Shown here piece by piece: positions 3,143 to 24,543 of a stretch of DNA of 56,676 nt. The notes beneath the pieces are model-generated. The model had not been told where the DNA came from and made no database searches. It worked only from the letters and a program-made list of their open reading frames with translations. Made by a program: the position numbers and the translations under genes. Every line of letters begins with the position of its first letter. The first letter of the stretch is position 1. The stretch covers positions 1 through 56,676 of the forward strand of contig JAIESI010000165.1 of assembly GCA_019746135.1 (NCBI GenBank), given 5' to 3'. Source of the stretch: Xanthobacteraceae bacterium. Its GTDB lineage: Bacteria > Pseudomonadota > Alphaproteobacteria > Rhizobiales > Xanthobacteraceae.

Positions 3143-4333
3143 ATGGCAAACGGCGTCACGGCCGGCATTCCGCGTCTGCGCGCCTGGCATGGGCCCGCTT
3201 TGCTTTCATACGGCTTCCGTCCGTTCTTCCTGTTCGGGGCGGTCTATGCGGGTGGCGCGGTGCTGGTCTGGCTGCCGCTGTTCAGCGGGCAGATCGAGCT
3301 TCCGTCGATCTTCACGCCGCGCGACTGGCACGTGCACGAAATGCTGTTCGGCTTCGTGCCGGCCATCGTCACCGGCTTTCTGCTCACCGCGATCCCGAAC
3401 TGGACCGGTCGGCTGCCGCTGCAGGGCCTGCCGCTGCTCACGCTCGTTGTCGCGTGGGTTGCGGGACGCGCCGCCGTCACGTTTGCCGCACTGATTGGCT
3501 GGGCTGCCGCGGCCGCCATTGACGTTGCGTTTCTGGTGCTGGTCGCAGCCGCAGCCTCGCGTGAGATCGTTGCCGGAAGCAACTGGCGCAATCTCAAGGT
3601 GGTGATCGTGGTCGCGACGCTTGCGGCCGCGAACCTTGTGTTCCACCTCGAAGTGCATTTTCACGGCAGCGCCGACTATGCGGCGCGGCTCGGCATCGGT
3701 GCGGTGATCCTGCTGATCTCGCTGGTCGGCGGCCGGCTGGTGCCGAGCTTCACCCACAATTGGCTCGCGAGCCGGAGCAAGGGACGAATGCCGCGCCCGT
3801 TCGGCCGGTTCGACATGCTGACCGTGGCGGCGAGCGCGGCTGCACTCGTCGCCTGGGTTGCCGCGCCGTTCGGACCCCTGACCGGCGCGGCGCTGCTCGC
3901 CGCCGGACTGTTGCAGTCCGCGCGGCTCCTGCGCTGGGCGGGTGAGCGCACACTCGCCAACCGGCTCCTGCTTGTGCTGCATGTCGGATACGCATTCGTC
4001 CCGCTCGGCTTCATCCTTGCCGCCGCAGCCGCGCTCGGCATGGTGCCGCTCAGCGCTGCCAGTCATGCCTGGACCGGCGGAGCTGTGGGCGTGATGACGC
4101 TCGCGGTCATGACGCGGGCGAGCCTTGGCCACACCGGACGTGCGCTGGCGGCCTCAGCGGGCACGCAGGCGATCTATGCGCTTGTCGTCGTCGCGGCGCT
4201 GGCACGGATCTGCTCATCGCTGCATCCGGACTGGTTCATGCCGCTGCTCTGGGTCGCCGGGGCCGCCTGGGCGGCGGCATTCCTGGGCTTTGCGGTGCTG
4301 TATGCGGCTCCGCTCTGCAGGCCTCGGATTTAG
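3143..4333 (+). CDS. nnrS: NnrS family haem-copper membrane protein
   Basis: A 396-residue integral membrane protein with about twelve hydrophobic segments, recognised as NnrS by LLSYGFRPFFLFGA near residue 19 and the histidine-bearing WHVHEMLFGF near residue 58. NnrS is a haem- and copper-containing inner-membrane protein linked to resistance to nitric oxide and to denitrification. In this window it belongs functionally with the nap operon at 21496-25657, although the two are about 17 kb apart. Nitric oxide reductase and nitrite reductase genes are not in the window. It ends 11 bp from the convergent hydrolase gene at 4345. Confidence 0.92.
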   Translation: MANGVTAGIPRLRAWHGPALLSYGFRPFFLFGAVYAGGAVLVWLPLFSGQIELPSIFTPRDWHVHEMLFGFVPAIVTGFLLTAIPNWTGRLPLQGLPLLTLVVAWVAGRAAVTFAALIGWAAAAAIDVAFLVLVAAAASREIVAGSNWRNLKVVIVVATLAAANLVFHLEVHFHGSADYAARLGIGAVILLISLVGGRLVPSFTHNWLASRSKGRMPRPFGRFDMLTVAASAAALVAWVAAPFGPLTGAALLAAGLLQSARLLRWAGERTLANRLLLVLHVGYAFVPLGFILAAAAALGMVPLSAASHAWTGGAVGVMTLAVMTRASLGHTGRALAASAGTQAIYALVVVAALARICSSLHPDWFMPLLWVAGAAWAAAFLGFAVLYAAPLCRPRI

Positions 4334-4344
4334 GGCACGGCCGA

Positions 4345-5037
4345 CTACCGCCGTTTGGCTATCGCTCTGTTCCACGTCGCAAACGCATCGAGCGCGACGG
4401 ACAAGGTTTCCTTGTCGGTTCGCCCCGACCGCGCCGGCACGTGGAACGAATGATCGGCATCCGGCAGCAGCTCCAGCGTGGCCCGGTCACCGAGCTTCCT
4501 GACCAGCGGCTCGAGCAGATCTTGCTCCGCGAGCGCATCGCGCGTTCCCTGCAGGAACAGCATCGGGATCGTGACATCGAACAAGTGCTGGCCGCGCTCG
4601 TCGGACGGCTTGCCCGCGGGGTGGAGCGGAAAGCCGAAAAACGCAAGCCCCCGGACGTTCGCCATCGGCGCGAGCGCCTGGGCCTGCGACGTCATCCGGC
4701 CGCCAAACGACTTGCCGCCGGCAAGCATGGGAACGCCGGGCACGAGCTCGGCCCCGTGCGCGACGGCGGCGCGGACGGCCGCGTGCGCAAGCTTCGGCGG
4801 ATCCGGCCGCTTCGAGCCGTGCTCCATGTAGGCAAACTGATAGCGCAGCGTCGCGACGCCGCGCTCGGCAAGGCCTTGCGCGACCTGCTCCATGAACGGA
4901 TGCGTCATCCCGGCGCCGGCCCCGTGCGCGAACACGTAACAGGCTTGCGGCTCGGCCGGCGTCGTCAGCAGGCCGCTGACGTGACCCGCTGAGCCCGCAT
5001 CGATCTTGCAGGGTTTGCTCTTGAACGTCACGGCCAC
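4345..5037 (-). CDS. Alpha/beta hydrolase of the KANL3/Tex30 type
   Basis: A 230-residue alpha/beta hydrolase read from a GTG start that has an AGAGGA Shine-Dalgarno; a second GTG two codons on is possible. Signatures are YVFAHGAGAGMTHPF (oxyanion-hole region), GGKSFGGRM (nucleophile elbow with the serine in GKSFGG) and a late DADHSF histidine. The pattern matches the small bacterial proteins related to KANL3/Tex30, whose substrates are unknown. It starts 26 bp after the stop codon of the ExoIII-LigD gene on the same strand, so the two are probably one transcript. That association is worth noting because the enzyme has no known role in end joining. Confidence 0.82.
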   Translation of the reverse strand: MAVTFKSKPCKIDAGSAGHVSGLLTTPAEPQACYVFAHGAGAGMTHPFMEQVAQGLAERGVATLRYQFAYMEHGSKRPDPPKLAHAAVRAAVAHGAELVPGVPMLAGGKSFGGRMTSQAQALAPMANVRGLAFFGFPLHPAGKPSDERGQHLFDVTIPMLFLQGTRDALAEQDLLEPLVRKLGDRATLELLPDADHSFHVPARSGRTDKETLSVALDAFATWNRAIAKRR

Positions 5038-5050
5038 GAACCTCGTCCTC

Positions 5051-5076
5051 TCAAAGCATCTTGTCAAAGCACCTTG
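5051..5076. repeat. 13-bp tandem duplication across the ligD stop codon
   Basis: TCAAAGCATCTTG (5051-5063) is followed directly by TCAAAGCACCTTG (5064-5076), one mismatch apart. The second copy encodes the last residues and stop codon of the ligD fusion and the first lies in the spacer before the downstream hydrolase. This looks like a small tandem duplication that left the reading frame unchanged because the stop is in the inner copy. Confidence 0.7.
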
Positions 5077-7772
5077 GCAAGCCTCGCGATGGCAGCCTTC
5101 AGCGGTTGGCCTGCGCGATCGTAGCCGTCCCAGGCTTTGCTGCGCTTGAGCAGCGCCGGGACGGTGCGCAACGTGAAGGCCAACGGATCGAGCCCGCGCT
5201 TCACCTGCGGCCACGTCACCGGCATCGACACCGGGGCCTGCGCCCGCAGCCGCGTCGATAGCGGCGCGACGGCGGTCGCCATGCGGTCGTTGCGCAGGAA
5301 ATCGAGGAAGATGCGGCCGTGCCGCTTGCCCTTCGCCATGTTGAGGACGAAGCGCTGCGGCTCGTCGCGCACGACGGCCTCGCAGACGTCGTGGGCGAAC
5401 TTCTTCGCTTCCGCCCAGTCCGGGCTGTCCTTCGCAAGCGCCAGCGGCGTGACCACGTGCAGGCCCTTGCCGCCGGTGGTCTTGCAGAACGTCGTGAGAC
5501 CCAGGAGCTCGAGCACCTCGCGCATCTTGTGGGCGGCCTCGATGACCGACGCAAAGTCGACGTCGGGGGCGGGATCGAGATCGAACACCAGGCGGCCCGG
5601 CACCGCCGGCTGGCCGGGCTGGCCGTTCCACGGATGCAGCTCCATCCCCGCGATCTGCACGATGGCGATCAGCGCCTCGATATGGTCGATCTGGATGTAG
5701 GGATTGCGATCGTCGAACACCCGGACGAGCGTGATCAGGTCGGACAGCCCCGCCATGCCGTGGCGCTGGAAGAACTGCATGTCGCCGAAGCCGTGCGGCG
5801 CGCGCACCACCGAGCAGGGTCTGCCTTGGAGATGCTTGATCATCCACGGCCCGACCGCCTCGTAGTAGCGCGCGAGATCGAGCTTGGTGATCGGCTTGCC
5901 GTGCCCGTCATCCGGCCACAGCGGCTTGTCGGCATGGCTGATGACCACGCCCATCACCTCGGCGGTCTGCTCGGCTGTGCGCGACCTGGCGACGATGATC
6001 GACGGCGTGGCCCTGGCCGTTTTCTCGGCCACCACTTCGCCGGCCGGCTTGTCGTCGCGAAGGCCCTTGAACGCCGCCTCGCGGATGTGGCCGTCACCGG
6101 TCCACCCGGCGAATTCGATTTCGGCCACAAGCTCCGGCCGCGTCCAGCGGATGGTGTCTTTCGATCGCGGCGGTCCTTGGCCCGAGAAAGGGGATTTGTT
6201 CGCCTCGACTTCGCGCAGGCGCGGCAGCAGCTGCGCGATGGTGTCGCGGCCGTAACCGGTGCCGACGCGGCCCGCATAGACCAGGCGGCCGTCGCGATAG
6301 ACTCCCGCCAGCAGCGAGCTGAATTGCGTGCGCCTCGAGGTCCAACCGCCGATGATGATCTCCTGGCTCGGACGGCACTTCGCCTTCACCCAGGTCGCGG
6401 TGCGCCCGGACGCATAAGGCGCGTCGAGCTTCTTGGAGATGATGCCTTCGAACTGGAGCTCGCTCGCCGATTGCAGAACGTCCGCGCCGCGGCCTTCGAT
6501 GTGCTCGACATAGCGGATCTGCGGGCCGTGGTCGCTCTCGTCCAGCAGCTCCTTGAGGCGCGCCTTTCGCTCGCGGAGCGGCGCTTGCCGCAGGTCGCGC
6601 GCGCCCTCGAACAGCAGATCGAAGGCGAAATAGACGAGCTTGTCCGTGCGATCCTCGGACAGCGCCGCCTGCAGCGCGGAAAATTTCGGCACGTCGTTCG
6701 CATCGAGCGCGACGACCTCGCCGTCGACGATGCAGTCGGGCAGGCCCACGGCCGCTTTCGCCGTGCCCTTGAACCGCTTCGTCCAGTCGAGACCGGTGCG
6801 GGTGCGCAGCGCCGCGCGGCCGTTCCGCACCTGAAGCTGCGTGCGATAGCCGTCGAGCTTGACCTCATGCACCCAGCCTTTGCTCGACGGCGGCTGCGCG
6901 ACGGTCTCGCAAAGCTGCGGAGCAATGAAATCCGGGATGGCTGGCCCTGGCTTGATCGCGGCCGCGGCTTTGCCGCGAGCTTTGTTCTTTCGCGCCGCTC
7001 GGTCGCCGAGCACGATCCACACCGGCGCGTGGTCGCTGGCGCCCTCACGTCCGCGAACGTCGCGATCGACGCCGGCCGACTTAAGGCGCGGGGCGAGATC
7101 GGGGCTCAGCAGCAGGTGGTCGATGCGCAGCCCCGCGTCGCGCTCCCAGCGCAGGCGCATGTAGTTCCAATACGTGTAGATGCGCTCGCCGGGATGCAGC
7201 GACCGCAGCGCATCGGTCCAGCCCTGCTTGAGGAGCCGCGCGTATTCCGCGCGGCTCGCTGGCTGGACCAGCGCGTCGTCGTCCCATGACTTGGTCGGAT
7301 AGATGTCGATCTCGGTCGGGGCGACGTTGTAGTCGCCGGCGAGAACGACAGGCGCTTTCGAGCGCAGCAGTGCGCGCGCATGGGCTTGCAGGCGCTTGAA
7401 CCACGCAAGCTTGTGGTCGAACTTCGGTCCCGGCTGCGGATTGCCGTTCGGCAGGTAAATGTTTGCGACCAGAATGCCGTCGACCGCCGCTTCAAGGTAA
7501 CGCGCGTCCGCATCGGCCTTGTCGCCGGGCAACGCGGTTCGCGTCACGACCGGCTCGGCATGGCGCGACAGGATGGCCACGCCGTTCCAGGTTCGCTGAC
7601 CGAGCCAGGCGGCGCGGTAGCCCGCGGCGGCAATCGCACGCTCCGGAAATTCGCCGTCGGTGCACTTCAGTTCCTGCAGGCAGGCGACATCGGGCCGCGC
7701 GGTCTGCAGCCAGTCGAGCAGGTTGGGCAGCCGGCGATTGATGTTGTTGATGTTGAAGGTGGCGATCTTCAC
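5064..7772 (-). CDS. ligD: Exonuclease III - DNA ligase D (ligase + polymerase) fusion
   Basis: One uninterrupted frame of 902 residues from a GTG chosen because [11 protein letters not shown] is the usual start of exonuclease III. Residues 1-258 form a complete ExoIII/AP-endonuclease domain with all catalytic residues visible: N7, E34, Y106, D147, N149, D218 and the SDH ending in H248. A lysine/alanine linker follows. Residues about 285-590 are an ATP-dependent ligase with K305 in [14 protein letters not shown] at 350, EGIISKK at 442 and WVKAKC at 461. Residues about 610-902 are the LigD polymerase/primase domain with the FDLDP metal site (D731, D733) and GGKGLHV near 768. The usual phosphoesterase domain is absent. 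The product should fill, trim and seal double-strand breaks with the Ku protein encoded divergently at 7924. Confidence 0.93.
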
Positions 7773-7923
7773 GGGAACCGGCCGGCACAAAACAAGAACC
7801 GAGGCTGCGCACGCTAAGGTTAGCAGGCTGTGGGCTACCAAGACCGTAGGGGTTGGGCTCGTCAACCCGAGCGGGTCGATTATATTCCGGCCAAGTATCC
7901 AGGGTGTTGAGTAGGAGTAGCCA
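7773..7923. promoter_or_regulatory. Shared divergent promoter region of ligD and ku
   Basis: This 151-bp gap separates the ligD fusion (minus strand) from ku (plus strand). It holds a TATATT box at 7881-7886 that could serve as the -10 element for ku, a short dyad GCTCG/CGAGC at 7857-7861/7868-7872, and a TAGGAG Shine-Dalgarno before the ku ATG. I could not identify a convincing -35 box or a sporulation- or stress-type sigma motif. Assignment as a promoter is by position and weak motif only. Confidence 0.4.
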
Positions 7924-8883
7924 ATGGCCCCGCGTCCGAACTGGAAGGGCTACCTGAAGCTGTCGCTGGTGTCGTGCGCGATCGCGCTTTATCCCGCGAC
8001 CTCCGATCGCGAGCGGGTCTCGTTCAATCAGCTCAACAAGAGCACCGGCAACCGTATCCGCTACAAGAAAGTGGACGCGGAGACCGGCGACGAGGTGGCG
8101 AGCGACGACATCATCAAGGGCTATCAGGTCGACAAGAACGTCTACGTCACCGTCGACGACGAGGAGATCGAGGCGCTTCAGGTGGAAGCGAGCCACACCA
8201 TCGAGATCGACAGCTTCGTGCCGATGGCGGAGATCGACGAGCGCTATTTCGATGCGCCTTATTACGTCGTGCCGAACGACAAGGTCGGGCAGGACGCGTT
8301 CGCGGTCATCCGCGAGGCGATGCGCGGCAAGAAGATGGTCGGCGTCGGCCGCGTGGTGATCTCCAAACGCGAGCGGCCGATCATCCTCGAGCCGATGGGC
8401 AAGGGGCTGCGCGGCATGACGCTGCGCTATCCCTACGAGGTGCGCGACGAGAAGGAGTATTTCAGCGACATTCCCGATGTGAAGGTCGCCGCCGACATGC
8501 AGAAGCTCGCCGAGCATATCGTCGAGACCAAGGAAGGCAGCTTCGATCCGACGTCGTTCGTCGATCACTACGAAGAGGCGGTCGTTGACTTGCTCAAGAG
8601 CAAGCAGGCGGGCCGGGCGGTGTCGCGGACGCGTGCGGCCGAGCCGCAGACCAACGTCATCAATCTGATGGACGCGTTGAAGCGCAGCATCTCGTCGGAG
8701 AAAGAGACCGCCAAGACGCAGAAGACCAAGGTCAAGAAGGCCGACGATCTGCGCAAGCAGCCGCAGTTCACCTTCCCGATCGAGGGCGGCAAGGCCAAGC
8801 AGGGCAAGGCCGCGGCGAAGCCTGCGGCCAAACCGGCCGCCAAGCCGGTTGCCGGCGCGAAGCCGAAGCGGAAATCGGCTTAG
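7924..8883 (+). CDS. ku: Ku protein, non-homologous end joining
   Basis: A 319-residue bacterial Ku. The core beta-barrel ring region runs from [12 protein letters not shown] (residue 8) through [17 protein letters not shown] (near 142) and [14 protein letters not shown]. It is followed by a helical segment ([19 protein letters not shown]) typical of the family. The last 60 residues are a lysine/alanine/proline tail with [11 protein letters not shown] repeats, as in other long-tailed bacterial Ku proteins where the basic tail helps DNA binding and threading. Ku homodimers bind double-strand ends and recruit LigD; the partner is the divergent fusion at 5064-7772. Start ATG has a good Shine-Dalgarno 6 nt upstream. 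Confidence 0.95.
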
Positions 8884-13849: not shown

Positions 13850-15034
13850 TCAGGCGGCAAGCGCATCCGCCTTCTGACCGGCCCATTCCTCGAAGGTCAT
13901 CATCCGCAGGCCAAGCCGCGCGTAGTCGACCCGGTAATAGCCGTCCGCCGCCAGATGCACCGCATCGGGCGCAATCCGCGCGACCTCCTGCGCCATCACG
14001 CCCACATGGACGATGTCGCTGAAGATGTAGCGGAAGCGATAGAGGCCGATGCCGCTTTCGAGCCGCGCCAGCAGCACGACGTCGTGCTTCAGGCGAATGT
14101 CCGACACCAGCGGAACGCAGCTCGCGCTATTGAAGATTTCGCCGGGGTCGTTGCAGACGGTGTTCGACGACGTCGAGCCTGGTCCAAGCGAGTTGGCGAT
14201 GCTGAACAGCGTATCGACCGCCGTGTCGGAGCCCGGATCGTCCTCGCGATGGCGGCGGATCAGCGACTTGTCGCTGGTGCCGAAATAGAACCGGACGCCG
14301 CCCCAAGCGCCGTAGTTGTGGCTGCCTTCGCCCCAGCGCCCTTCGCCGAACAGCGACGCCATGACGCCTCGGCCGAGCGGCTGTGCGTACTCGCTGCCGA
14401 GCGCCAGCATGTGCCGTCCGCCGAAATAGCGGTGGCCCACCGAGGCCTTCCAGTTGTCGGTGACGTAGTAGGCCAGGGTGACCCGGTCGAAGAAGCGCGT
14501 CACACGGTCCAACTGCGCCGCCGTGCTGGAGGTGGTTTGGGTCGCAGTGCCGAAGCCGGCCGCAAACGTCCGGCTTGTGGTGCTGCCGGACAGCACCGAC
14601 GAATTGTTGCCCCATTCGACGCCGGCCACGGCCCGCAAGGTGAAGCGTCCGAGATAGACCTCGCCTTCGCCGCCGAGGTGACTGACGTTGACGCCGCCGT
14701 GTTCGCTCCAGCGCAGGTGGCGCGCGTAGATGCCGATCAGCCCTTGCTGCGGGTTTCGCCAGAACAGATGCGCGGCCCCGCTGCCGATGAAGCGATTGCC
14801 GAACGTGCCGGCCGCGCCGTCGAGTTGGAGGCCGAACTGATCTCCGAGCGGCAGCGCGAGCTTTCCGGCTCCGCCGTAGAGACCGTTTGTGGCATAGCTG
14901 CCGCCCAAAGCTTCAAACGTGGCATTGACGGTGTCCACGGCCCGGCTCGATGGCGGCGCTTCGGCGGCCATGACCGCGCCGCCGAGCCAGGTGGACAGGA
15001 ATGTCGAGGAAAGCAACGCAAAGCGCGACGGCAT
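13850..15034 (-). CDS. Barrel-like exported protein with C-terminal peptidase S74 / chaperone domain
   Basis: A 394-residue protein with an N-terminal signal peptide (cleavage likely near AEA, residue 26). Residues 40-270 are rich in alternating aromatic and glycine residues (LQLDGAAGTF, VYLGRFTLRAVAGVEW, LAYYVTDNWKASVGHRYFG), as in outer-membrane beta barrels. The C-terminal 80 residues begin with SDIRLK (S311, K316), the Ser-X4-Lys catalytic pair of the intramolecular chaperone/peptidase S74 domain, and continue with VGVMAQEV and YRVDYARLG. In phage tail spikes that domain trimerises the protein and then cuts itself off; here it is on a chromosomal exported protein. It faces the interrupted ligase gene, 9 bp apart, and has its own upstream region of about 280 bp. 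Confidence 0.8.
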   Translation of the reverse strand: MPSRFALLSSTFLSTWLGGAVMAAEAPPSSRAVDTVNATFEALGGSYATNGLYGGAGKLALPLGDQFGLQLDGAAGTFGNRFIGSGAAHLFWRNPQQGLIGIYARHLRWSEHGGVNVSHLGGEGEVYLGRFTLRAVAGVEWGNNSSVLSGSTTSRTFAAGFGTATQTTSSTAAQLDRVTRFFDRVTLAYYVTDNWKASVGHRYFGGRHMLALGSEYAQPLGRGVMASLFGEGRWGEGSHNYGAWGGVRFYFGTSDKSLIRRHREDDPGSDTAVDTLFSIANSLGPGSTSSNTVCNDPGEIFNSASCVPLVSDIRLKHDVVLLARLESGIGLYRFRYIFSDIVHVGVMAQEVARIAPDAVHLAADGYYRVDYARLGLRMMTFEEWAGQKADALAA

Positions 15035-21688: not shown

Positions 21689-22015
21689 ATGGCCGGGAAA
21701 CGACACTCCGCTGAAATGGACCGCCGCGACTTCATCCACGGGCGCTGGCCGGTCGGCGCGGAGGATCATGCGAGCGCGTCGGTCGAGATCGCAAGCATCC
21801 TGGTGCAGGCGCGGCCCGAGCGCCTCGACGATGTCGCGCAAGCGATCGAGGCGATGCCGGGCACGCAGATCTTCAGCCGCGATCCGCGCGGCAAGCTCGT
21901 GGTGGTGATCGAAGCCGCGGAAACCGGCGCAATCGGCAGCGCGCTCAACGACATTTCGCTCATGCCGCACGTGCTGACGGCGGCGCTGGTGTTTCACGGC
22001 ACCGACGAAGCTTGA
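21689..22015 (+). CDS. napD: NapD, chaperone for the NapA Tat signal
   Basis: A 108-residue cytoplasmic chaperone. The NapD core is [28 protein letters not shown] and GKLVVVIEA, a ferredoxin-like fold that binds the twin-arginine signal of NapA and holds it back until the molybdenum cofactor is inserted. The N-terminal 25 residues (including [11 protein letters not shown]) extend beyond the usual length; an internal ATG at 21716 would remove part of it. A GAGGTGAGG sequence supports 21689. It is followed after 23 bp by napA. Confidence 0.9.
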
Positions 22016-22038
22016 ACAAGACAACAAGGGAGACGGCC

Positions 22039-24543
22039 ATGGGTCAGGACAATCTGGACCGCCGTAAATTCCTGAAGCTCGAAGCCGCGGCGATGGCGGC
22101 GGCCGCAGGCGGGCTGCCGATGCCGGCCGCGGCGCAGAACCTCGTCACCGACCGCGCGCTCACCGAGCTCAAGTGGGACAAGGCCCCGTGCCGGTTCTGC
22201 GGCACCGGCTGCGGCGTCATGGTGGCGACGAAAGAAGGTCGCGTGGTGGCGACGCACGGCGACCAGAAGGCCGAGGTCAACCGCGGCCTCAACTGCGTCA
22301 AGGGCTACTTCCTGTCCAAGGTGATGTACGGCCACGATCGGCTGACGCGTCCGATGCTGCGCATGCGGGGCGGCCGTTACGACAAGAACGGCGAGTTCAC
22401 CCCAGTGTCCTGGGACGAGGCTTTCGACGTCATGGCCGAGAAGTTCAAGGATGCGCTCAAGCGGCGCGGGCCGTCCGGGGTCGGCATGTTCGGCTCGGGC
22501 CAGTGGACGATCTGGGAGGGCTACGCCGCCAGCAAGCTGTTCAAGGCAGGCTTCCGCTCCAACAATCTCGATCCCAACGCGCGGCACTGCATGGCCTCGG
22601 CGGTGGCGGGCTTCATGCGCTCGTTCGGCATCGACGAGCCGATGGGCTGCTACGACGACTTCGAGGTCACGGATGCGTTCGTGCTGTGGGGCGCGAACAT
22701 GGCGGAGATGCATCCGGTCCTGTGGTCGCGGGTGACCGACCGAAGACTCAGCGCGCCGCATGTCAAGGTCGCGGTGCTGTCGACCTTCGAGCACCGCTCG
22801 TTCGATCTCGCCGATATCGCGATGGTGTTCAAGCCGCAGAGCGATCTTGCGATCCTCAATGCGATCGCAAACCACATCATCGCCACCAACCGCGTCAACA
22901 AGGATTTCGTCGGCAGGCACACCGTGTTCAAGCGCGGCCAGACCGATATCGGCTACGGGCTGCGCCCCGAGCATCCGCTGGAGCAGAAGGCCTCCGGCCG
23001 CACCAAGGCGAATGATGCGGACGACATCAGCTTCGAGGACTATGCGAAGTTCGTCGCCGAATACACGCTGGAGAAAGCGTCGCAGATGTCCGGCGTGCCG
23101 GCGGAGCAGATCCGCGCGCTGGCCGAGCTTTACGCCGACCCGAAGACCAAGGTGGTCAGCTTCTGGACCATGGGCTTCAACCAGCACACCCGCGGGGTGT
23201 GGTGCAATAATCTCGTCTACAACATCCATCTGCTCACCGGAAAGATCGCCGAGCCGGGCAACAGCCCGTTCTCGCTTACCGGCCAACCGTCGGCCTGCGG
23301 CACCGCGCGCGAGGTCGGCACGTTCTCGCACCGGCTTCCCGCCGACATGGTGGTCACCAACAAGGGCCACCGCGACAAGACCGAGCGGATCTGGAAGCTG
23401 CCGGAGGGCACCATCAATCCGCAGCCCGGCTATCACGCCGTGCTGCAGAACCGGATGCTGCGCGACGGGCTCCTCAACGCCTACTGGGTGCAGGTCAACA
23501 ACAACCTGCAGGCCGCGGCCAACGCCAACGAAGAGGCCTGGATCGGATATCGCAATCCCGAGAACTTCATCGTTGTCTCCGAGGCCTATCCGACCGTCAC
23601 CGCGCAGGCGGCCGACCTGGTTCTGCCGACGGCGATGTGGGTGGAGAAGGAGGGGGCCTACGGCAATGCCGAGCGCCGCACGCACTTCTGGCACCAGCTC
23701 GTCGATGCACCGGGCGAGTCACGCTCGGACCTCTGGCAGCTCATGGAGTTTGCCAGGCGCTTCAAGGTCGAGGAGGTGTGGCCGGCCGAACTGATTGCGA
23801 AAAAGCCCGAGGTCCGCGGCAAGACGCTGTTCGACGTGCTGTTCAAGAACGGCGAGGTGGACAAGTTCCCGGTCTCCGACGTCGCGCCGGGCTACGAGAA
23901 CAGCGAGGCCAAGGCGTTCGGCTTCTACGTGCAGAAGGGCCTGTTCGAGGAATACGCCTCATTCGGCCGCGGCCATGGCCACGATCTTGCGCCGTTCGAC
24001 GCCTATCACGAGGTGCGCGGCCTGCGCTGGCCGGTGGTGGACGGCAAGGAGACCCGCTGGCGCTTCCGTGAAGGTCTCGACCCCTACGTCAAGCCCGGCA
24101 AGGGCGTCGATTTCTACGGCTTCCCCGACGGCAAGGCGCGGATCTTCGCGCTGCCCTACGAGCCGCCGGCCGAAAGTCCCGACAACACCTATCCCTACTG
24201 GCTTGTCACCGGACGCGTGCTGGAGCACTGGCACTCCGGCTCGATGACGCGCCGGGTGCCGGAGCTGTACCGGGCGTTTCCCGACGCGCTTTGCTACATG
24301 CATCCGGACGACGCGGTGGCGCTCAACATGCGCCGCGGCGACGAGGTGAAGGTCGAGTCGCGTCGCGGCTTCATCCGCACGCGGCTCGAGACGCGCGGAC
24401 GCAACAAGATGCCGCGCGGCGTGGTGTTCGTGCCGTGGTTCGACGAAGGCCAACTCATCAACAAGGTGACGCTCGACGCCACCGATCCGATTTCGCTCCA
24501 GACCGACTTCAAGAAATGCGCGGTGCGCATTTCGCGCGCGTGA
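22039..24543 (+). CDS. napA: Periplasmic nitrate reductase catalytic subunit NapA
   Basis: An 834-residue molybdenum enzyme that reduces nitrate to nitrite in the periplasm. The Tat signal is DRRKFLKL followed by an alanine-rich stretch. The [4Fe-4S] cysteines are C51, C54, C58 and C86 (CRFCGTGC ... NCVKGY). The molybdenum-ligating cysteine is C184 in ARHCMASAV. The molybdopterin-binding regions continue through [22 protein letters not shown] and the C-terminal [17 protein letters not shown]. Length matches alphaproteobacterial NapA. ATG at 22039 has an AAGGGAGA Shine-Dalgarno. Electrons come from NapC through NapB, encoded next. Confidence 0.98.

Follow-up and report, generated by a model that had tools for sequence, protein, structure and literature searches.

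Results

Organization of the fusion gene and its neighborhood

We analyzed a 56,676-nucleotide stretch of DNA from a Xanthobacteraceae bacterium (assembly GCA_019746135.1, contig JAIESI010000165.1), hereafter referred to as the window. Its minus strand carries a gene in which an exonuclease III (ExoIII) domain is joined to the ligase (LIG) and polymerase (POL) domains of LigD, a protein of bacterial non-homologous end joining (NHEJ), and a divergently oriented ku gene lies beside it (Table 1). The reading frame of the fusion gene is uninterrupted over 933 codons; counted from GTG 7772, the likely start, the product contains 902 amino acids. A Pfam scan of the 933-amino acid frame identified Exo_endo_phos (PF03372; E 1.3e-29) in the ExoIII part, DNA_ligase_A_M (PF01068; E 4.6e-22) and DNA_ligase_A_C (PF04679; E 1.3e-28) in the ligase part, and LigD_Prim-Pol (PF21686; E 3.7e-82) in the polymerase part, and it returned no match at E 0.001 to the LigD phosphoesterase (PF13298).

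NCBIfam models, judged by their curated cut-offs, gave a concordant assignment. The ExoIII part scored above the cut-off for exoDNase_III (TIGR00195; 226.2 bits against 182.55) and for the exonuclease III test TIGR00633 (232.3 against 99.05), and below it for the exodeoxyribonuclease III equivalog NF008733 (PRK11756; 159.6 against 280). Scores for the NHEJ ligase (TIGR02779; 316 bits), the LigD polymerase (TIGR02778; 291 bits), and the DNA ligase D equivalog (TIGR02776; 669 bits) exceeded their cut-offs of 227.75, 214.7, and 373.2, respectively. By alignment, the ligase nucleophile is K305, which falls on the lysine of the KxDGYR motif in the ligase domain of mycobacterial LigD. The product of the neighboring gene matches Ku (TIGR02772; 290 bits against a cut-off of 150), and the start codons of the two genes are separated by 151 bp. 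One sigma-70-like match in this stretch, weak as evidence, is directed toward ku. These searches confirm the preliminary description of the locus, which had recognized from the letters alone ExoIII, LIG, and POL in one 902-residue frame, the absence of the phosphoesterase, and the adjacent ku.

The frame also shows no sign of being split between its ExoIII and ligase parts, an event that the preliminary description had named as a way to overturn its reading. G+C content at third codon positions (GC3) ranges from 0.76 to 0.96 across eighteen 50-codon blocks, the ExoIII/ligase junction among them. Residues 255–300 contain no in-frame ATG, GTG, or TTG, which makes a separate ligase from an internal start unlikely and led us to reject two translation products. 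The first structure model of the protein was poor, with a predicted local distance difference test score (pLDDT) of 63 and a predicted template modeling score (pTM) of 0.39. A second model built from another alignment (pLDDT 80.3; pTM 0.41) improved within domains and does not give the arrangement of domains. A further alignment, A2, was set aside because phosphoesterase-bearing rows blurred its consensus in the ExoIII part. The modeled folded modules, separated by low-confidence linkers at residues 260–277 and 584–601, are in keeping with tethered domains.

Table 1. Features of the fusion locus, in window positions.
Feature	Position	Strand	Basis
Fusion gene, 902 aa	5064..7772	-	GTG start 7772, stop 5064-5066; open upstream to TTG 7865
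ExoIII domain, residues 1-255	7008..7772	-	TIGR00195, PF03372, residue table, fold comparison
Linker, ~residues 260-277	6942..6995	-	Low model confidence, predicted flexible
LIG domain, residues ~285-581	6030..6920	-	TIGR02779, alignment
Second low-confidence linker, residues 584-601	5970..6023	-	Structure model
POL (primase-polymerase) domain, residues ~609-878	5139..5948	-	TIGR02778, PF21686
Divergent intergenic stretch between fusion gene and ku, 151 bp	7773..7923	.	Frame boundaries
ku, 319 aa	7924..8883	+	PF02735, TIGR02772

Occurrence of the fusion in other genomes

A search of ~5.8 billion proteins returned 5339 matches, of which the best 120 were examined. Among these are at least six further protein clusters that share all four Pfam domains of the query and have lengths of 901–917 amino acids. 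The six clusters comprise 51 member sequences, are 77–92% identical to the query across its whole length, and each derive from one contig. Because the same architecture occurs in six full-length clusters on other contigs, a join made in one assembly, against which the preliminary description had advised a check, is excluded. Adjacency to ku was established for the window copy; the six homologous clusters were compared as proteins.

Within the family, the fusion is rare. A related match was found in 249 of 296 sampled genomes, each scored for at most three candidates, and the full 902-residue match was found in the window's own genome only (1 of 296), so we rejected the notion that the fusion is widespread in the family. 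The same holds for the genus, in which the own genome alone among 11 carries it, and a search of viral contigs returned no relative. A window protein tested for kinship had a best same-genus match of 47%, and with 8.5% contamination in the genome bin the taxonomic placement of the contig is tentative. We also sought close relatives of a LIG-POL protein, P0016, in 391 family genomes and found none; the best of the matches listed was 67% identical. The frames of the listed matches, 709–1434 amino acids long, suggest that they may be LigDs with an extra domain.

Catalytic residues and relatives of the ExoIII domain

Alignments with E. coli ExoIII and NExo of Neisseria meningitidis, assembled in a residue table, revealed that all eight catalytic positions checked are present in the ExoIII part (N7, E34, Y106, D147, N149, D218, D247, and H248), as the preliminary description had held; among them, E34 and D247 are positions that we take to be catalytic. 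Roles for the positions of N7, Y106, D147, N149, D218, and H248 are described in PMC6294502. Among the fusion homologs, P0004 has Gln at the position of catalytic His248, as do two other ExoIII genes among 98 sequences compared.

NExo is the closest solved structure by sequence and ranks first among ExoIII-type fold matches, with a template modeling (TM) score by target length of 0.93 and 39% identity; E. coli ExoIII (TM 0.87, 32%) and NApe (TM 0.86, 25%) follow at greater distance. NExo is described as a 3'-phosphatase and 3'-exonuclease that leaves native apurinic/apyrimidinic (AP) sites uncut, and NApe as an AP endonuclease without 3'-phosphatase activity (PMC6294502). Residues N108, at a position linked to phosphatase activity, and H167 contribute to the behavior of NExo (PMC6294502). 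The fusion has Asn (N109) at the first position and Leu (L168), not His, at the second, and both residues are found in 98 of the 98 sequences compared, from which the distant paralog L005 was left out. AP-incising relatives have Gly or Ser at the position of Leu168; E. coli ExoIII has Gln and Ser at the two positions, adjoining a small alignment gap. On the residues compared, Asn109 and Leu168 are a mark of the subfamily and its housekeeping kin, not of the fusion itself. The AP-endonuclease activity that the preliminary description had ascribed to the domain should not be assumed, given its closeness to NExo, the Asn at the phosphatase-linked position, and the presence of Leu instead of the Gly or Ser of AP-incising relatives.

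Phylogeny of the fused domains

Sequences entered the ExoIII set as single matches longer than 200 residues; split or truncated xth copies (e.g., L182, L026, L040, L055, and L073) stood outside the trees. Removal of four rows (L065, which is split, and three duplicates) and of identical rows left 90 sequences, and L005 was also left out of the approximately unbiased (AU) tests. All seven fusion domains group in a single clade (support 100/99); sister to it (97/93), and closest among the other rows, is a solo xth gene from a genome of the same genus (G001), with 77% identity. The LIG-POL part of the fusion likewise forms its own clade (100/100), which stands beside LIG-POL proteins of 624–635 amino acids without a phosphoesterase, the order of these groups being weakly supported. 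The simplest history would be that a solo xth gene was joined to a ligD that already lacked the phosphoesterase.

One protein nested within the LIG-POL clade of the fusion, P0007, is placed there because it is a mosaic. It is a phosphoesterase-bearing LigD of 865 amino acids on a contig of 3575 bases. Its identity to the fusion is 52–55% in the first part of the ligase and 78–97% beyond approximately residue 440–500 in fusion numbering. P0007 is either a natural recombinant or the product of a chimeric contig.

ExoIII genes linked to NHEJ genes or fused to other nucleases

Free-standing xth genes from this ExoIII subfamily (55–62% identical) occur in 24 of 80 LigD loci. These loci were the best 80 of 424 matches, came from named genomes that are mostly rhizobial, and spanned 13.6 kb on average; the counts ignore kinship. 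The distance between xth and ku is 385–394 bp in 12 of the 24 loci and 1.1–1.35 kb in 9. Two genomes from the window's family (L162:6267-10231 and L104) have xth ~0.55 kb upstream of a phosphoesterase-bearing LigD on the same strand. An unannotated xth stretch was also seen upstream of ligD at 5001–5763 of Ancylobacter polymorphus plasmid pD (L182); its match is split over two frames, and the gene may be broken or missequenced.

Sphingomonad plasmids present a tighter linkage in which ligD is followed by xth with an overlap of 4 bp; two of these plasmid LigDs were scanned with Pfam, and both lack the phosphoesterase. Of 352 plasmid records that gave a match of any extent, 12 contain 80% or more of the ligD-xth pair, and all 12 are from sphingomonads. 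We classified 17 plasmid LigD loci, those of 26 listed rows with a match covering the ligase part. Six have xth and no phosphoesterase, two have neither, two have both, and seven have the phosphoesterase and no xth. The association between absence of the phosphoesterase and presence of xth gave a Fisher P of 0.057, which became 0.126 without L186, whose phosphoesterase side lies off the record, and 0.041 without L186 and L216.

The NHEJ-linked xth genes fall into a clade (92/90) other than the one (98/97) in which the fusion groups with its solo relatives. A tree constrained to a single clade for both was 127.6 log units worse and was rejected (AU p 4e-5, an optimistic value because the group was defined with the first tree already in view). 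Since the linked genes and the fusion lie in separate clades, ExoIII probably joined NHEJ genes at least twice.

Members of the same ExoIII subfamily also occur joined to a 5' nuclease of the DNA polymerase I type (PF02739, almost always accompanied by PF01367). This arrangement was seen in 113 proteins (P0121–P0234 except P0150) among the 120 listed out of 2446 matches, the search being restricted to lengths of ~496–1578 amino acids, and in L166–L172 and L100:430-2136 on the minus strand. The ExoIII/5' nuclease copies that were compared do not group in a single clade (AU p 0.012), so that several fusions or losses are likely. P0150 (617 amino acids) joins the subfamily's ExoIII to an alpha/beta hydrolase domain. 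The recurrence of xth beside NHEJ genes in alphaproteobacteria and the fusion of the subfamily to another repair nuclease mean that the window's gene is not an isolated case.

Other repair genes in the host genome

The own genome contains a distant xth paralog, L005, in which Ala and Ser occupy the two NExo positions, residues that were read in this copy only. Relatives of the paralog (77–88% identical) are present in 9 of the 10 other genomes of the genus, or 10 of 11 with the own genome included. Endonuclease IV (TIGR00587) was found in none of the 11 genus genomes by a search that was positive in 10 of 14 control genomes. Because a distant paralog with Ala and Ser exists and has relatives across the genus, the fusion is not necessarily the source of an AP endonuclease. 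By analogy to NExo and NApe, a division of labor is plausible in which the distant paralog would act as the AP endonuclease and the fusion as the 3'-end cleaner.

Elsewhere in the window, a protein encoded at 13853–15034 on the minus strand ends in Peptidase_S74 (endosialidase chaperone); it has seven matches in the own genome including itself, most of them on other contigs. An NnrS family protein and a molybdopterin oxidoreductase are encoded on the plus strand at 3143–4333 and 22012–24543, respectively.

Discussion

The fusion is a LigD-type ligase-polymerase with an N-terminal ExoIII domain in place of the phosphoesterase. Its domain content, its residues, and its neighbor suggest that this single chain probably cleans, fills, and seals breaks held by Ku. 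Ku, whose role here is suggested by the neighboring gene, would hold the DNA ends and recruit the fusion. The ExoIII part is predicted to strip 3'-phosphates and other 3' blocks from the same ends, mainly as an NExo-like 3'-phosphatase and 3'-exonuclease, after which the POL domain would fill and the LIG domain would seal. The phosphoesterase of LigD has 3'-phosphatase and 3'-ribonuclease activities (PMC8656161), so ExoIII could cover the 3'-phosphatase role of the lost domain.

Bacterial NHEJ is described as a system of two proteins, Ku and LigD (PMC1378119, PMC7719229), in which 3' ends are processed by the phosphoesterase domain (PMC8656161). A broader view, which we regard as possible and hold tentatively, is that NHEJ in alphaproteobacteria has a third component, an ExoIII-family 3'-end cleaner recruited at least two times, and that in the fusion this component has functionally replaced the lost phosphoesterase. 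If so, NHEJ in these bacteria would not be a two-part Ku-LigD system, and the fusion would be a complete clean-fill-seal enzyme in one chain. The fusion and the xth genes beside ku and ligD bear on how LigDs without a phosphoesterase treat 3'-phosphates and blocked ends. Together they point to ExoIII as a missing NHEJ partner for which the fusion provides a single-protein test case. A compact enzyme of this kind might also be of use in DNA work.

Several observations weigh against this interpretation. No LIG, POL, or Ku match lies near the solo xth of the fusion clade in L099 (18 kb) or in any of eight solo xth loci (L173–L180; 9.9–14 kb). In the survey of LigD loci, 56 of 80 have no xth in the stretch examined and 79 of 80 have the phosphoesterase; the sole locus without it, L041, starts near a contig end. 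Rhizobial LigDs near xth retain the phosphoesterase, so its replacement is not a general rule and ExoIII is at least sometimes an addition to NHEJ. A strict swap of phosphoesterase for ExoIII was rejected, being a trend only among the 17 plasmid LigD loci. The own genome holds a second NHEJ set composed of a phosphoesterase-bearing LigD and a second Ku (L101; G000, contig C125). Finally, an Archaeoglobus enzyme titled AP endonuclease matches the fold of the ExoIII part nearly as closely as NExo does (TM 0.90, 34% identity), and Asn109/Leu168 is a weak discriminator since it is present in ordinary xth genes too and its Leu differs from the His of NExo.

The main rival, which is well motivated but which we consider unlikely, is that the fusion performs base-excision or gap repair as one protein for which Ku is optional: ExoIII would cut AP sites or trim 3' blocks, LIG would remove the 5'-deoxyribose phosphate (5'-dRP), POL would fill, and LIG would seal single-strand gaps. 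LigD of B. subtilis, which likewise consists of LIG and POL and lacks a phosphoesterase, is a 5'-dRP lyase and carried out repair of AP-incised DNA in vitro; its authors proposed that it serves a branch of base-excision repair together with an AP endonuclease (PMC4770248). In mycobacteria, LigC1 binds to ExoIII and XthA in a set that repairs gaps (PMC5663958). Fusion of the ExoIII subfamily to a 5' nuclease in most listed homologs suits excision repair, and the lack of endonuclease IV matches in the genus points in the same direction. However, the divergent neighbor of the gene is ku, a further xth is conserved in the genus, its copy in the own genome being, with Ala/Ser, nearer the AP-endonuclease pattern, and the ExoIII part is nearest to NExo, by which native AP sites are left uncut (PMC6294502).

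It is improbable that the ExoIII part instead resects ends for microhomology, degrading 3' strands to expose short homologies that POL and LIG would then join. NExo and related enzymes do act as 3'-5' exonucleases (PMC6294502), but such degradation would presumably remove the 3' ends that the polymerase requires, no feature of the sequence favors processive degradation, and a nuclease with weak exonuclease activity performed best in mycobacterial gap repair (PMC5663958). Very improbable, too, is a neutral fusion, in which adjacent repair genes lost a stop codon and the fused product works no better than two separate proteins would. The restriction of the fusion to one clade, its short linker of low model confidence, and the Gln of P0004 at catalytic His248 would fit this account, but full length has been maintained down to 77% identity and ExoIII genes of another clade adjoin NHEJ genes elsewhere. 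An assembly or annotation artefact, to which the draft state of the host genome (395 contigs, 8.5% contamination) lends some color, is practically negligible in view of the same architecture in six clusters on other contigs and a coding signal that is continuous in GC3.

The preliminary description was thus right in outline. Its AP-endonuclease claim is softened, as is its claim that ExoIII stands in the phosphoesterase's place; the latter is too simple in view of rhizobial ku/ligD loci that contain xth although LigD retains the phosphoesterase. The context is also widened. Its suggestion that the architecture might be unpublished agrees with our search of open-access titles and abstract beginnings (supplements and most subscription papers lay outside its scope), in which no paper was devoted to an ExoIII-LigD fusion or to an xth-ligD pair. 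A survey of Ku and LigD proteins mentions 20 additional domains in its supplementary table 10 (PMC7719229), and a prior listing there is possible. With that reservation, ExoIII-LIG-POL is apparently an undescribed layout of a known repair enzyme.

The known layouts of LigD are phosphoesterase-LIG-POL, POL-phosphoesterase-LIG, LIG-POL, and stand-alone parts (PMC8656161, PMC1378119), and the phosphoesterase is not universal, being absent from B. subtilis LigD (PMC8656161). LigD of the Pseudomonas type resembles the fusion in that LIG precedes POL and a 3'-end-processing domain is N-terminal; that domain is the phosphoesterase PF13298 in the former and ExoIII in the latter. LigD of the B. subtilis type shares with the fusion the order LIG-POL and the absence of a phosphoesterase, but it has no nuclease domain and the AP endonucleases of B. 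subtilis are separate proteins (PMC4770248). NExo has the same catalytic set as the fusion's ExoIII part and Asn at the N108 position, and differs in being free-standing and in having His167 where the fusion has Leu168.

In two further systems the corresponding parts are separate proteins. The sphingomonad plasmid pair combines a LIG-POL protein without a phosphoesterase and an ExoIII of the same subfamily, as the fusion does. Unlike the fusion, it consists of two genes that overlap, with xth placed after ligD, its LIG-POL part is ~40% identical, its ExoIII belongs to the other clade, and the LigD of two of the pairs has the phosphoesterase. In the mycobacterial complex of LigC with ExoIII and XthA, a repair ligase, a primase-polymerase, and ExoIII-type nucleases cooperate as they would in the fusion, whereas there the partners are separate, non-covalently associated proteins and the ligase is LigC rather than LigD (PMC5663958).

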